A DNA stretch of 51,153 nucleotides. It comes from Lawsonibacter sp. GTDB taxonomy: Bacteria; Bacillota; Clostridia; Oscillospirales; Oscillospiraceae. The position numbers and the translations under genes were made by a program. The stretch spans positions 1 to 51,153 of the forward strand of contig JAAWIE010000008.1 of NCBI GenBank assembly GCA_022796195.1. The letters are read 5' to 3'. Positions 1 to 3,879 of the stretch are shown piece after piece. Positions within the stretch are counted from its first letter, which is position 1, and every line of letters starts with the position of its first letter. The notes below the pieces were generated by a model that worked only from the letters and a program-made list of their open reading frames with translations, was not told where the DNA came from and made no database searches.

Positions 1-90
1 CTGTTTTCCTGGTCAACGGAATTTAGGGTAGGCACCAGAAAGCCTTGCAAATCAAGGGTTTCCTGTGTTGTCCCTATTATAACTCACTAC
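1..90. other. Sequence replacing the 3' end of spoIVB (possible insertion junction)
   Basis: From position 90 leftward the sequence no longer encodes SpoIVB in any frame: the minus strand has a stop at 52-54 and further stops after it. It contains a small inverted repeat, CCTTG-5-CAAGG (about 42-57). No coding potential is visible. It may be the end of a mobile element (prophage-like or intron) or an att region. The element body, if there is one, lies outside the window. Confidence 0.5.
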
Positions 91-1077
91 CATCCCCTGG
101 ACAATACCGCCGGTAGCAGCCAGCAGGTCCGGGTCGGTTACCTCCACCATCATACTCCGGGTACCGTCTCCCTCCGGATATAGGTGGGTAATTTGAATGT
201 CAAATTCCTCCACCTCATCGCCCCGGACGTTAGACAAAATGGTGGCCGGTCCGGCAGACACCTGCGCCCTGGAGGCCACCTCCACCGGTTCCACACCGCT
301 GCCCACCAGTTCCTGGGGCATTTGACCAAACACCCCCAAGTCCGTATTGGCGTACAAGGTGCCCAGGTCCCGGGTCAGGTCAAACTGCCCATGAAGCTCG
401 CCAGGTGCGCCGCTGGTCCCCTTCTTTACCTCGGAGACGCTGGCTGGCATGATACTGCCCGACTCCAGCGGCATAAGCATGGCCGTGTCCACATCGTTGA
501 TGCCGTGGCCCAGCGCACCAAACACACCGCTGGACGGGTCATAAAAGGTCACGGTGCCAATCCCTGCCATCGAGTCCCGCAGCCACACGCCCAGCTGGTA
601 GACCCCCTGGCTGTTTTCCACCGCCGCTGCGGTCAGCTGAAGCTGACGCTGTCCCCGAACCGCCTGAATTGTGAGGGGTTCATCCTCTGACTTGGCTACC
701 AGTGCCTGAACCTCCTCAATCGTATCCACCTCGCCGCCGTTGATATGGGTGATGACATCGCCAGTTTTCAAGCCGCAGTCCCGGCCTGGGTAGGAGGAAC
801 CGCGGTCCGTCTCTACCGGGGACAGGCCAACCACCAACACGCCATCTGAAAACAGTTTGATGCCCACTGCCTTGCCCAGCGGGATCACAGTGCGGCCCAC
901 CGTCTTTTGTGTGGGCTGAGCCGCGGTCTGCCGGGGTGCCTCCAGTGCAGCCAGAGCCGAGACCGCTGCTGCCTGTCCCCGTCCGGCCACAGCCGCAGAC
1001 AGCATCAGACAGAACACCACCGCCCCGGCGGCCAGCCCAAACCACACTCCCGGCCCTTTTTTCTTCTCTTGTTCCAT
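52..1077 (-). pseudogene. spoIVB: SpoIVB sporulation signalling protease, interrupted before the catalytic Ser
   Basis: SpoIVB is made in the forespore, crosses into the intermembrane space and cleaves SpoIVFA, which starts pro-sigma-K processing. The sequence shows an N-terminal membrane segment (about residues 13-32), a PDZ domain (about 70-150) and an S55 peptidase domain with the catalytic His in GHGINDVDT (residue 191) and the Asp in VTDPDLL (residue 315). The family motif GGIVQGMSGSP is intact only through GGIVQGM (Met 329, codon at 91-93). The next 12 residues are unrelated and a stop follows. In B. subtilis numbering the missing residue is the nucleophile Ser378. The ATG at 1075-1077 is chosen because AGGGGGTG lies 6 bases upstream; a GTG at 1084 would overlap that site. 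As read, the protein should be inactive. Confidence 0.88.
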
Positions 1078-1133
1078 GATTTCCACCCCCTTGCCATCTC
1101 ATTGTTCCAAATGTCCCCCGCCTGTTCACGGGT

Positions 1134-1169
1134 AAAAAAAGAGCGGACGGACTCAAACCGTCCGCCCTC
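1134..1169 (-). terminator. Intrinsic terminator after the ArsC-family gene
   Basis: On the minus strand a GC-rich hairpin (arms GAGCGGACGG and its complement, with one bulged base) is followed by seven T. It should end transcription from the ArsC-family gene before spoIVB. Confidence 0.8.
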
Positions 1170-1299
1170 TCATTATGGCCGGAGTTTCCCCAATTCAACC
1201 GTGGGGAGGAATACCACCATTTCCAGTGTTGGAGCGTCCGCCCTTGAAACAGGCGGACAAGGAAGTCTATCTGGAATTCTCTTCCAGGGCTGGAACATG

Positions 1300-1647
1300 T
1301 TACAGCTTTTTGTCCCACTCCTCTGGGCGGAAGCCGGTCAACACAAAGCCGTCCCCCACCAGAATGGGCCGTTTTACCAACATTCCATCGGTGGCCAGCA
1401 GCTCCAGCTGCTCCTCCTCGCTCATGCCGGGCAGTTTGTCTTTCAACCCCAGTTCCCGGTACTGGATGCCCGAGGTGTTGAAAAACCGTTTCAGAGGCAG
1501 TCCGCTGGCCTGCCACCAGGTCCGCAGTTCCTCTGCGGTGGGATGCTCCTCCTTGATGTGCCGCAAGTCGCAGGAAACACCCCGCACATCCAGGAATTTT
1601 TTGGCCTTTTGACAGGTTGTACATTTGGGGTACCATAGAAGCAGCAT
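1300..1647 (-). CDS. ArsC/Spx family protein
   Basis: This 115-residue protein belongs to the ArsC/Spx thioredoxin-fold family. It begins MLLLWYPKCTTCQKAKKFL, so a CxxC pair sits at residues 9-12 after the first beta strand. It also has the family segment IRYRE-like NTSGIQYRELGLKDKL and a C-terminal KRPILVGDGFVLTGFRPEEW, which corresponds to the cis-Pro (RP) loop. In such proteins the cysteines serve in thiol redox chemistry; it could be an Spx-like regulator or a glutaredoxin-dependent reductase. Sequence alone does not decide, but it lacks the C-terminal length typical of Spx (about 131 residues). The start ATG has GGAGAG 8 bases upstream, and a good promoter precedes it. It appears monocistronic, with its own terminator. 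Confidence 0.85.
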   Translation of the reverse strand: MLLLWYPKCTTCQKAKKFLDVRGVSCDLRHIKEEHPTAEELRTWWQASGLPLKRFFNTSGIQYRELGLKDKLPGMSEEEQLELLATDGMLVKRPILVGDGFVLTGFRPEEWDKKL

Positions 1648-1674
1648 GATTCCACTCTCCTTTTTATTTTGCCT

Positions 1675-1703
1675 ATCGTACCACATTTTGACAGCCTGTG
1701 CAA
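1675..1703 (-). promoter_or_regulatory. Sigma-A promoter of the ArsC-family gene
   Basis: On the minus strand TTGCAC and TACGAT are separated by 17 bases, and the spacer ends in TGG, giving an extended -10. The -10 lies 28 bases upstream of the start codon. Confidence 0.6.
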
Positions 1704-1704
1704 C

Positions 1705-1881
1705 TCATTCACTCAATTTCTCCACCAGCATTTTCAGCTCACCCAAGGTGGAGACGGTGATTGTACTCTCCAGCAGTCGCAGCTGTGCCTTGGCAGGTAT
1801 GGTGTCCCAGTAGGACAGCAGGGCCGCGTCGTGGCCCACCACGTCCTGAGGCAGACGGTAATACTGTTCAAATTGATCCAT
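1705..1881 (-). CDS. Hypothetical 58-residue protein
   Basis: This small ORF begins MDQFEQYYRLPQDVVGHDA and is preceded by AGGAGGAG about 6 bases before its ATG, which is strong evidence that it is translated. The product is acidic and amphipathic, with no signal peptide or membrane segment and no motif that I recognise. Its stop codon touches the -35 box of the next gene's promoter. A terminator-like hairpin separates it from the coiled-coil gene upstream. No function is assigned. Confidence 0.6.
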   Translation of the reverse strand: MDQFEQYYRLPQDVVGHDAALLSYWDTIPAKAQLRLLESTITVSTLGELKMLVEKLSE

Positions 1882-1930
1882 ATATGCTCCTCCTCGCCCA
1901 GTTTGCCCAGGCGGGAAGGGTTCCATGCGT

Positions 1931-1971
1931 AAAACACAAAGGGAGGCCGCCCATTTTGAGCGGACTCCCTT
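1931..1971 (-). terminator. Terminator after the coiled-coil protein gene
   Basis: On the minus strand AAGGGAG pairs with CTCCCTT, with an inner CCGC/GCGG pairing, followed by a T-rich tail (TTTGTGTTTT). It sits 14 bases after the stop of the upstream gene. Confidence 0.65.
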
Positions 1972-1984
1972 CTTGGAACAATAC

Positions 1985-2383
1985 TCAGTCCAGCTTGTCT
2001 TCCTCAACAACGGTTTCCACAGCATCAGCCACAGCCTCAGCGGCGGATTCCACGGTCTCGGCAACGGTCTCCAGCTCCACCTCGGGTTCGGGATCGCCGG
2101 GCTGCTTCAGCTCCGCGATGCGCTCGTTGTTGGTCTCAATCAGGGCCTTGGAGGCGGTGATCCGCTCACAGGCTGCGGCAAAGGCGCCGTCGGGAGAGGC
2201 GCCCTGTTCGGCGTAGTACAGCTTGCCGATCTCGATATACGCCTTCTTGATCGCGTCTTCCTCCGCCATATTGGCGGTTTTCAGCTTGGCAATCTCAGCC
2301 AGCCGCTTGGACTGGGCCACGCCCGCCTGGGCCATCTCAGTCGCTCTGTCCTTCAGGTTCTCAAACGTGCTTTTCAAATCCAT
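1985..2383 (-). CDS. Hypothetical coiled-coil protein
   Basis: This is a 132-residue soluble, strongly charged and probably all-helical protein starting MDLKSTFENLKDRATEMAQ. The first 95 residues look like a helical coiled coil. The last 40 are an acidic tail rich in Glu, Val and Ala (for example VETVVEEDKLD). No signal peptide, membrane segment, cysteine pair or enzymatic motif is present. The start is well supported by AAGGAGG 8 bases upstream. It is flanked by its own promoter and terminator, so it is probably a single-gene transcript. No function is assigned. Confidence 0.75.
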   Translation of the reverse strand: MDLKSTFENLKDRATEMAQAGVAQSKRLAEIAKLKTANMAEEDAIKKAYIEIGKLYYAEQGASPDGAFAAACERITASKALIETNNERIAELKQPGDPEPEVELETVAETVESAAEAVADAVETVVEEDKLD

Positions 2384-2426
2384 ATTAGTAACCTCCTTAA
2401 TTTACGGTTTCCCGTCTGCTGCCCTT

Positions 2427-2455
2427 ATTCTATCCGATTTTCCCCCGGGGCGCAA
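2427..2455 (-). promoter_or_regulatory. Sigma-A promoter of the coiled-coil gene
   Basis: TTGCGC and TAGAAT are separated by 17 bases on the minus strand, 43 bases upstream of the start codon. Confidence 0.55.
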
Positions 2456-2532
2456 GAGGCTTTATCTTTATTTAATGAATTTTTCATGGGAGGTACATCA
2501 GGCTTTCATACTTTCGACAAATAGGAGGCCCA

Positions 2533-3879
2533 TCAATACCGCCCAAAGTCACCGGAGCGCCCCTTAGTCACATCAGAACCGAACTCGTAGTCCTTGCCGG
2601 GGAGAATGGCGTTGAGGGTGATTCCGGCAATAGCGGCAACAGCCAGCGCCGTAAGCGTAATGGAGGTACCGCCGATGTGAAAGGTCAGCCCGGAGAACTC
2701 ATTGTTAAAGCCCCAGATTTTAAAGCCCAGGCCGCATACCATAATAACAGCAGCAATAATCAGGTTCCGGGAGTTGGTGAAGTCCACCCGGTTCTCTACC
2801 ACATTGCGCACACCGATGGCGGAGATCATACCATAGAGGATGAAGGACACGCCGCCGATGATGGCCGTGGGGATGGAGTTGATGACGGCGGCAAATTTAG
2901 GGGAGAAGGAGAGTACCACGGCATAGACTGCGGCCAACCGGACCACATTTGGGTCAAAAACCCGAGACAGCTCCAGAACGCCGGTGTTTTCTCCATAAGT
3001 GGTGTTGGCCGGTCCGCCGAACATGCCGGCCAGCGAGGTGGCTACACCGTCGCCAATGAGGGTGCGGTGAAGGCCGGGGTCTTCGATAAAGTTCTGCTCT
3101 ACGGTGGCGGAGATGGCGGACATATCGCCGATGTGTTCCATCATAGCGGCCAGAGCGATGGGAGCCATAACCAGGATGGAAGTCACATCAAACTTTGCCA
3201 GCACGAAGGGCTGGAGCCCCACCGCATCTGCAGCGGCTACGCCGGTAAAGTCCACCTGACTGGTAACCAGGGCCACTGCATAGGGAACCAGAACCCCCAG
3301 CAGAATGGGGATAATCTTGATCATGCCCTTGCCCCAGATGTTGGCGGCTACGATCACCGCAATGGAGAGAATCGCCAGCCACCAGTTTGTAGAGGCGTTA
3401 TTGATGGCGCTGGGAGCCAGAGACAGGCCAATCAGAATGATGATGGGACCGGTAACCACCGGGGGCAGGAACCGCATCACCTGGCGGACCCCCACCGCCT
3501 TAATCAGACCGGCCAGGGCCAGATACAACAGCCCGGCCACCACGATGCCGCCCAGAGCGTAGGGCAGTTTTTCTGCTCCGGACATTCCGGCGTAAATCCC
3601 GGAATCCAGCTCCGCCACCGCGGCAAAGCCGCCCAGATAGGCGAAGGAGGACCCCAGAAAGGCGGGAACCTTCCACTTGGTACAGAAGTGGAAGAACAGC
3701 GTGCCCAGACCGGCGAACAGCAGGGTAGTCTGAATGCTCAGCGGCAGGCCGTACCCCTGGACCAGAATGGGCACCAACACCGTAGCGCCAAACATGGCAA
3801 ACATATGCTGAAGGCCCAGAATCAGCATTTTGGGCAGACCCAGCTGCCGGGCGTCGCGGATTGGTTCGTTGTTGTTCAT
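2533..3879 (-). CDS. uraA: Uracil permease (NCS2 family)
   Basis: This 448-residue, multi-span membrane protein imports uracil with a proton for pyrimidine salvage. Family signatures are FGATVLVPILVQ near the N-terminus, LSLAPSAINN, the substrate-site stretch GPANTTYGENTGVLELSRV and the C-terminal DFTNSRNLIIAAVIMV. The length is normal for UraA/PyrP. The ATG at 3877-3879 is chosen because AGGGAG lies 7 bases upstream; upstream in-frame codons lie within the leader terminator region. It is transcribed alone from a strong promoter 170 bases upstream, and the leader between them contains a translated mini-ORF overlapped by an intrinsic terminator. Pyrimidine-dependent attenuation is therefore likely. 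Confidence 0.93.
   Translation of the reverse strand: MNNNEPIRDARQLGLPKMLILGLQHMFAMFGATVLVPILVQGYGLPLSIQTTLLFAGLGTLFFHFCTKWKVPAFLGSSFAYLGGFAAVAELDSGIYAGMSGAEKLPYALGGIVVAGLLYLALAGLIKAVGVRQVMRFLPPVVTGPIIILIGLSLAPSAINNASTNWWLAILSIAVIVAANIWGKGMIKIIPILLGVLVPYAVALVTSQVDFTGVAAADAVGLQPFVLAKFDVTSILVMAPIALAAMMEHIGDMSAISATVEQNFIEDPGLHRTLIGDGVATSLAGMFGGPANTTYGENTGVLELSRVFDPNVVRLAAVYAVVLSFSPKFAAVINSIPTAIIGGVSFILYGMISAIGVRNVVENRVDFTNSRNLIIAAVIMVCGLGFKIWGFNNEFSGLTFHIGGTSITLTALAVAAIAGITLNAILPGKDYEFGSDVTKGRSGDFGRY

Follow-up and report, generated by a model that had tools for sequence, protein, structure and literature searches.

Introduction

Serine recombinases are known to move elements that lie inside sporulation genes. 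According to one account (PMC5595907), skin in sigK, SPbeta in spsM and vfbin in spoVFB are elements of this type, all of them prophages or prophage-like, and in SPbeta and the skin element of C. difficile the recombinase is constitutive while the directionality factor is under sporulation control. The same text describes gin, a non-phage element in gerE of Bacillus cereus ATCC10987, for which timed excision with GirC and GirX has been shown. Large serine recombinases also place SCC/ECC elements at rlmH, in the 3' part of a conserved gene, where composite and tandem elements occur (PMC6222049, PMC5595907), and CcrAB is said to join non-canonical att pairs (PMC5595907).

Here we describe a junction in spoIVB that adds a conjugative kind to the serine-recombinase elements splitting sporulation genes, together with its recurrence in other assemblies, the complementary end with its three recombinase genes, and arrays of cassettes at the same codon. 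Gin and SCC/ECC are the closest known systems. With SCC/ECC the spoIVB site shares the class of recombinase, the location towards the 3' region of a conserved gene and the presence of composite and tandem elements. Like gin, the spoIVB element is non-phage, splits a sporulation gene and has three serine recombinase genes and a short core, and horizontal spread has been suggested for gin as well (PMC5595907). It differs in having a contiguous recombinase trio beside attR and conjugation genes, whereas gin occupies a gene of the mother cell, lacks structural genes for conjugation and has recombinase genes that are not all adjacent. The conjugation genes also set it apart from skin, SPbeta and vfbin. 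Unlike SCC at rlmH, the conjugative form at spoIVB removes the catalytic 3' end of its host gene, and cassettes supply about 42 codons in its place. In the open-licence papers searched, spoIVB was not found described as an insertion site of this kind.

Results and Discussion

spoIVB is cut directly before its catalytic serine codon

The window analysed in this work (the whole stretch of 51,153 nucleotides) is contig C22 of a Lawsonibacter sp. draft genome in its full length, and its position 1 is a contig end lying 90 bases inside the insert. Translation of the minus strand from 1086 to 1 reads ...ALGHGINDVD...EVTDPDLLAATGGIVQGM-VVSYNRDNTGNP-stop. The native part of spoIVB ends in ...VTDPDLLAATGGIVQGM, with the ATG at 93-91 as its last codon, and VVSYNRDNTGNP and a stop codon follow across the junction 91|90. 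The features of this region are:

91..1077, minus strand: 5' part of spoIVB, ATG at 1077-1075, ending in GGIVQGM (translation, relatives, TIGR02860, PF05580)
91..92, minus strand: putative TG crossover core, formed by the final two bases of the Met codon and common to attB, attL and attR (arm comparison)
91..113, minus strand: attB-derived left half-site GGCGGTATTGTCCAGGGGATG (sequence; same half in nine other assemblies)
68..90, minus strand: element-derived half-site GTAGTGAGTTATAATAGGGACAA, with TATAAT at 81-76 (sequence comparison with relatives)
52..54, minus strand: stop codon closing the chimeric frame, 12 codons past the junction (translation)
25..75, minus strand: possible leader hairpin behind the TATAAT box, -18.8 kcal/mol, z -2.1 (folding energy)
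1..90, minus strand: probable left end of a conjugative element (attL side), where the contig ends (identity to G062 and G093)

The truncated protein is a SpoIVB peptidase (PF05580, E 1.2e-55), and its TIGR02860 score of 281.9 bits lies below the cut-off of 305. The His and Asp motifs are kept, while the Ser codon and the 3' end are gone. We take the Ser directly after GGIVQGM to be the nucleophile, Ser378 of B. subtilis SpoIVB. Among 29 loci of relatives (L010-L038), 28 continue GGIVQGM-SGSP uninterrupted to the stop, and the gene of the remaining one (L022), which escaped the regular expression, is an open frame of 387 aa that reaches the 3' end. The window gene therefore lacks the Ser codon and about 41 codons, and both the translation and the uninterrupted relatives confirm that it is cut where the original prediction had placed the break, directly before the catalytic Ser codon. 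In the SpoIVB proteins of C. difficile the three catalytic residues are stated to be conserved (PMC11392383). A single PF05580 match was obtained in the whole host assembly, and neither this profile nor searches with the 3' end found in it a second intact spoIVB, which, combined with the lack of a 3' end within tens of kb, had been named beforehand as speaking against an interrupted gene.

The same junction is present in other genomes

Among 84,980 genomes, the 19-mer GTGAGTTATAATAGGGACA occurs in 18 stretches, which come from Clostridia, Oscillospiraceae, Firmicutes, Marvinbryantia or unclassified bacteria; by design, this search selects loci holding that arm. In nine of the stretches spoIVB is cut after GG[IV][IV]QGM, with the 19-mer three bases past the ATG of that motif; in eight it lies behind a spoIVB 3' end (L114, L121, L124, L125, L127, L128, L130 and L131). 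In the last one (L118) the contig starts with ATGGTA just before the 19-mer, and since the genome concerned (G089) has an intact spoIVB on another contig, that element cannot be placed. Two of the nine other assemblies with the junction belong to strains (1xD42-67 and Clostridiaceae bacterium strain 9), and two records, G024 and G095, share the same coordinates and look like one. A junction so close to a contig end (90 bases), in a draft genome of 2.68 Mb and 197 contigs with 90.9% completeness and 7.9% contamination, could be suspected of being an assembly or binning error. We consider this very improbable, given that the junction is identical to the base in nine further assemblies, which speaks against the assembly error contemplated in the original prediction, and that a contig end inside sequence common to several genomes is to be expected.

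The tail behind the junction is 99% identical over 89 bases to G062, where it lies directly behind a truncated spoIVB, and 83% identical over 58 bases to G024, also behind a truncated spoIVB; in a search of 64 genomes of the genus, 22 matched at E 0.1, and beyond these two the matches were short. Between the host (G000) and G093 the tail is identical in 80 of 80 bases and the preceding 300 bp of spoIVB are 66% identical, which indicates that the tail travels independently of the host gene.

Other origins of the tail were considered. A phage or plasmid source gained no support from the tail, which gave only scattered short matches; no viral contig held the 19-mer, and none of 50,697 phage records covered 80% of a 91-base query that represents the element's end only. 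The idea of a deletion fusing spoIVB to its own downstream DNA came from a 21-base match about 300 bp behind the intact spoIVB of G016, and was discarded because in G062 the tail enters conjugation genes and the 3' end lies elsewhere. Two contigs of the host genome, C183 and C97, were also rejected as the inserted element, the DNA after a related TATAATA[AG]GGACAA motif being different from the window tail. There (L039, G000:C183:1-100, and L041, G000:C97:3880-3985) the motif is followed by GGAAACCC, with a mirrored GTCCTATTATT, at contig ends; C183 resembles a conjugative element and C97 carries a serine recombinase gene.

In relatives the other end carries the spoIVB 3' end and three recombinase genes

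Searches with the 3' peptide gave a match in 15 of 16 genomes, G088 being the one with none. Of the nine truncated genomes, seven (G062, G087 and G090-G094) have an orphan 3' end (SGSP...) behind a TTG[TC]CCC..TTGACA..TG arm, and in all of these it is open and looks intact. The 3' end of G024 (= G095) is decayed and has no arm, and G094 has an extra 3' fragment of 22 residues cut by the contig end, so that a second copy of spoIVB is possible there. Three consecutive serine recombinase genes stand right before attR in six of the seven (G062, G087 and G090-G093), the contig of G094 stopping 93 bases from the site, and G353 also has such a trio beside its attR. In G062 the three proteins have 550, 564 and 550 aa, all with Resolvase, Recombinase and zinc-ribbon domains. 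Upstream of the trio, the six loci where that DNA is present encode a protein of 76-84 aa; in G062 it is a DUF6870 protein (Pfam), to which the others were matched by eye. Over 4,947 bp at their right ends, G062 and G093 show 99% identity.

On the attL side, G062 encodes a VirD4-like protein (CD1115 family, above cut-off), a VirB4-like ATPase (CD1110 family, below cut-off) and a TrbL-like protein, and thus has the VirB4 and VirD4 type proteins by which an integrative conjugative element is recognized. This left part is 86-89% identical in G088 and G089, and in G093 it is present in three pieces with 97-100% identity. In every genome seen attL and attR are on different contigs, and no single contig holds both ends. 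Domain composition of the recombinases at the element end in G062 (they are absent from the host assembly), a 2-bp core in attB, attL and attR and a near-palindromic attP agree with the large serine recombinase class. The weak family matches of the trio include CcrA, CcrB and CcrC, these being all far below cut-off (best 110 of 900 bits), so that ccr recombinases above their family cut-off, as in an SCC-type element, were not found.

A complementary attR with the 3' end, recombinases and conjugation genes indicates a serine-recombinase conjugative element and not an intron. Positions 1-90 of the window are thus very probably the attL of an integrative conjugative element put into spoIVB by a large serine recombinase, a recombinase element inside a sporulation gene. 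The attL and attR arms and the recombinases of relatives support the mobile element of the site-specific-recombinase kind that the original prediction had proposed as cause. Another of its proposals, removal of the insert at the RNA level by an intron or otherwise, would suit an insert in the most conserved motif of the gene, but its probability is practically negligible: no Rfam match up to E 1 was obtained in window positions 1-3000, no group II intron was recognized, the end of the insert is a half-site of a conjugative element, and in relatives both ends are half-sites sharing a 2-bp core, next to genes for serine recombinases and conjugation.

In the host genome itself, the spoIVB 3' end is absent from the assembly (the best match, E 0.92, is at another place, and a second search gave no match). 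Neither attR nor the 3' end nor the recombinase trio was found in this 91%-complete bin, where only partial matches of 67-81% were seen on C107, and the rest of the element is represented by just 99 bases at the start of contig C34. We read the missing remainder as lost in assembly and binning. The expectation that the 3' end and a recombinase would lie nearby consequently failed in the fragmented host bin, where neither was assembled, and held in relatives. The 99 bases on C34 (L219, G000:C34:1-99) match the G062 element with 100% identity, at a point about 15.9 kb from its attL, and may be read as a contig-end overlap or as a further junction; the gene directly after them is presumably trpS.

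The decayed 3' end of G024, and its absence from the sequences of G088 and of the host, would fit a plain loss of function, in which the element stays, spoIVB decays and the lineage abandons sporulation. We regard this course as possible but unlikely, in view of the seven 3' ends that are open and look intact, and of a self-moving kind of element, which at least some carriers should lose.

Two other arrangements were seen at spoIVB. G016 has an intact gene and a second 3' end, 98% identical and 9.3 kb away behind a TTG[TC]CCC..TTGACA..TG arm, with GTGAGTTATAATAGGGACA about 270 bp past the intact gene (L106, G016:C18); this is perhaps a gene repaired after insertion. L111 (G004:C89) and L109 (G064:C41) show another element family, distinct from the first, whose end lies further downstream in spoIVB, with GTAGGTATCAT followed by the 3' end from about ...HVLVNDP onward. 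A serine recombinase 20-26% identical to the trio lies right before this site in G004; in G064, for which the stretch examined includes only 95 bases ahead of the site, no such recombinase was matched.

Excision would restore spoIVB and complete a promoter in the circle

The dinucleotide TG is common to attB, attL and attR at the switch point. When the arms of seven elements are joined they read TTGTCCCATATTGACATCACTCG-TG-GTAGTGAGTTATAATAGGGACAA or variants, a near-palindrome (TTGTCCC...TG...GGGACAA) that is imperfect where one arm reads TTGACA and the other TATAAT. The TTGACA is found in all eight attR analysed, and in the seven reconstructed circles it lies 18 bp from TATAAT (17 in G087); TATAAT was fixed by the 19-mer search and TTGACA was not, with the reservation that the expression used in the script required TTGACA and all eight sites had been seen beforehand. 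The attL of the window has TTGTCC in place of TTGACA, 17 bp from TATAAT. To judge from these arms, the promoter would be complete only in the circle, facing the conjugation side. The possible hairpin behind TATAAT has z values of -4.5, -5.9 and -1.3 in three relatives. The 253 loci examined did not include a joined circle.

We propose that one of the recombinase trio inserts the element at the TG core directly before the catalytic Ser codon. This would split spoIVB in two, with a 5' part whose frame closes 12 codons inside the element and a 3' part at the far end with the Ser and about 41 codons, and no active SpoIVB, with a presumable block of sporulation, would be expected while the element is in place. 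Precise excision would rejoin GGIVQGM to SGSP and make a circle, at whose junction a TTGACA-17/18-TATAAT promoter could form and fire toward the conjugation side, so that leaving for conjugation would restore spoIVB in the same step. The reversible excision of the original prediction is structurally possible in this arrangement, the gene halves in G062 and its relatives abutting complementary arms that share TG.

Excision could also be developmentally timed, as in skin or gin, and restore spoIVB during sporulation. SpoIVB is made in the forespore, so a timed circle would have to stay in the spore and reintegrate, or excision would have to precede division; the earlier remark that a forespore gene does not fit the mother-cell logic of skin is upheld. 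Timed excision would agree with the gene halves being precise and in frame, as they are in the window and in G062, and serine-recombinase elements in sporulation genes do behave in this way, gin with its three recombinases included (PMC5595907). We nevertheless hold timing to be quite improbable here. A vegetative-type promoter (TTGACA-17/18-xATAMT) precedes the trio in all six loci with visible upstream DNA, which is not decisive because the recombinases of SPbeta and C. difficile skin are constitutive; and a recent spread of near-identical elements explains intact halves without timing, so that their integrity is no argument for it. A conjugative element that would restore the gene when it leaves is the reading we retain.

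Cassette arrays at the same codon

Genomes were scanned with a degenerate attR pattern that tolerated one mismatch, and with its reverse as control. The pattern was found in 11 of 394 genomes of the order and in 19 of 391 of the class, and the control gave no match in either draw. The draws share 18 genomes, host included, none with the pattern, and two of the 19 class genomes (G677 and G796) are G092 and G091 again by sequence. Out of 40 places with the pattern 35 were examined, and all 35 run on as spoIVB 3' ends; the pattern fixes the SGSP codons, so only the remainder of the 3' end is independent. The [VI]TH motif, not required by the pattern, is present in 32 of them. One place (L206) has an insertion, two (L242 and L253) are decayed and some others shortened. 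A trio-type recombinase lies within 1.5 kb in three of the 35 (G353 and two already known), six having less than 500 bp of upstream DNA. In L225 (G400:C15) and L228 (G334:C29) the contigs begin exactly at the TG core with the spoIVB 3' end, as if the assembly graph branched at the crossover, which could reflect repeated 3' ends or live rearrangement.

Seven genomes (G096-G102), six from sheep or roe-deer gut and the seventh SIG656, have an intact spoIVB, and in six of them there are one to three orphan 3' ends besides: three in G101, on a contig other than that of the intact gene, two in G096, one each in G099 and G100, one and a decayed one in G098, and one and a fragment in G097. The contig of G102 ends at an arm. 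The clear orphans are preceded by arms resembling TTG[TC]CC..TTGA..C.CAC..SCTG, and the distance from one 3' end to the next is 1.6 to 4.9 kb. Of 20 cargo proteins 18 have a Pfam match (the exceptions are L175:4116-4652 and L176:12702-13502), and they include SDR and Gfo/Idh oxidoreductases, arabinose-isomerase-like, GH5, WbsX and SASA proteins, AraC and LysR regulators, an FAD oxidoreductase, alcohol dehydrogenase, aminotransferase and SGL proteins, a pyruvate-formate-lyase-like protein, two Fic/Doc proteins, and NUDIX, DUF4143 ATPase and DUF4417 proteins. Relatives of the third G062 recombinase (25-33% identical) occur in five of the seven genomes, which proves nothing.

Behind the spoIVB 3' end, L121, L124, L125, L127, L128, L130 and L131 have a conserved box, TTGTCCCTATTTGAACACACTCC-nnGA-GTGAGTTATAATAGGGACAACA, and about 60 bp further on an inverted arm that closes with a half-site similar to GGCATTATCCAAGGAATACC. 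The centre of the box is not TG, and the spacing is 47 versus 48. In G096-G102 this box was considered as a possible invertible switch.

Cargo likeness outruns that of the host gene in two comparisons, which we count as evidence of cassette movement: 1,102 bp of cargo are 94.5% identical between G097 and G099, with 61% identity in the final 300 bp of the 5' part of spoIVB, and 2,061 bp are 89.4% identical between G101 and G462, with 65% in those 300 bp. The first orphan of G096 is 90.4% identical to the intact gene of G101 over 302 bp from TG on. Between G102 and G101, identity is 52% over the 300 bp before the boundary and 85% over the 114 bp after it, and third-position GC in G102 rises from 0.23 to 0.61 there, a step never exceeding +0.14 in 28 control genes; both point to a foreign 3' end in G102. 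It is the only one of 13 array genes with a step outside the control range, the other 12 lying within it, and elsewhere the apparent movement of cassettes is argued from common cargo and arms. The identities of 5' and 3' halves correlate with an r of 0.25 in the array genomes (78 pairs, 13 genes) versus 0.58 in the genus of the window (378 pairs, 28 genes), two groups that differ in depth.

Cassettes may be moved in trans by recombinases of the conjugative elements. Insertion of a cassette at spoIVB would need non-canonical att pairs, in which it would resemble the action of CcrAB. In the reading we propose, a cassette with its own replacement 3' end would be neutral for sporulation, and cassettes could therefore stack in integron-like arrays. 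Integrons, too, collect small gene cassettes into arrays at one fixed place, by means of a tyrosine integrase and attC sites; the spoIVB arrays differ in their TG-core junctions and host-gene 3' ends. As a tentative hypothesis, somewhat doubtful in its full extent, the catalytic Ser codon would anchor a Clostridia-wide cassette system, in which serine recombinases of conjugative elements move cassettes in and out at the TG before it, each with a replacement 3' end, and conjugative elements without a spare end keep sporulation switched off for as long as they stay.

Many gut Clostridia spread by means of spores, and a promiscuous conjugative element that removes the catalytic Ser of SpoIVB sets horizontal spread against spore formation, a conflict directly testable in a sequenced strain. 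Among serine recombinases, the cassette arrays would be the equivalent of integrons, with the active-site end of a host enzyme swapped each time a cassette inserts, and they would reveal a route by which metabolic genes are exchanged among non-model Clostridia.
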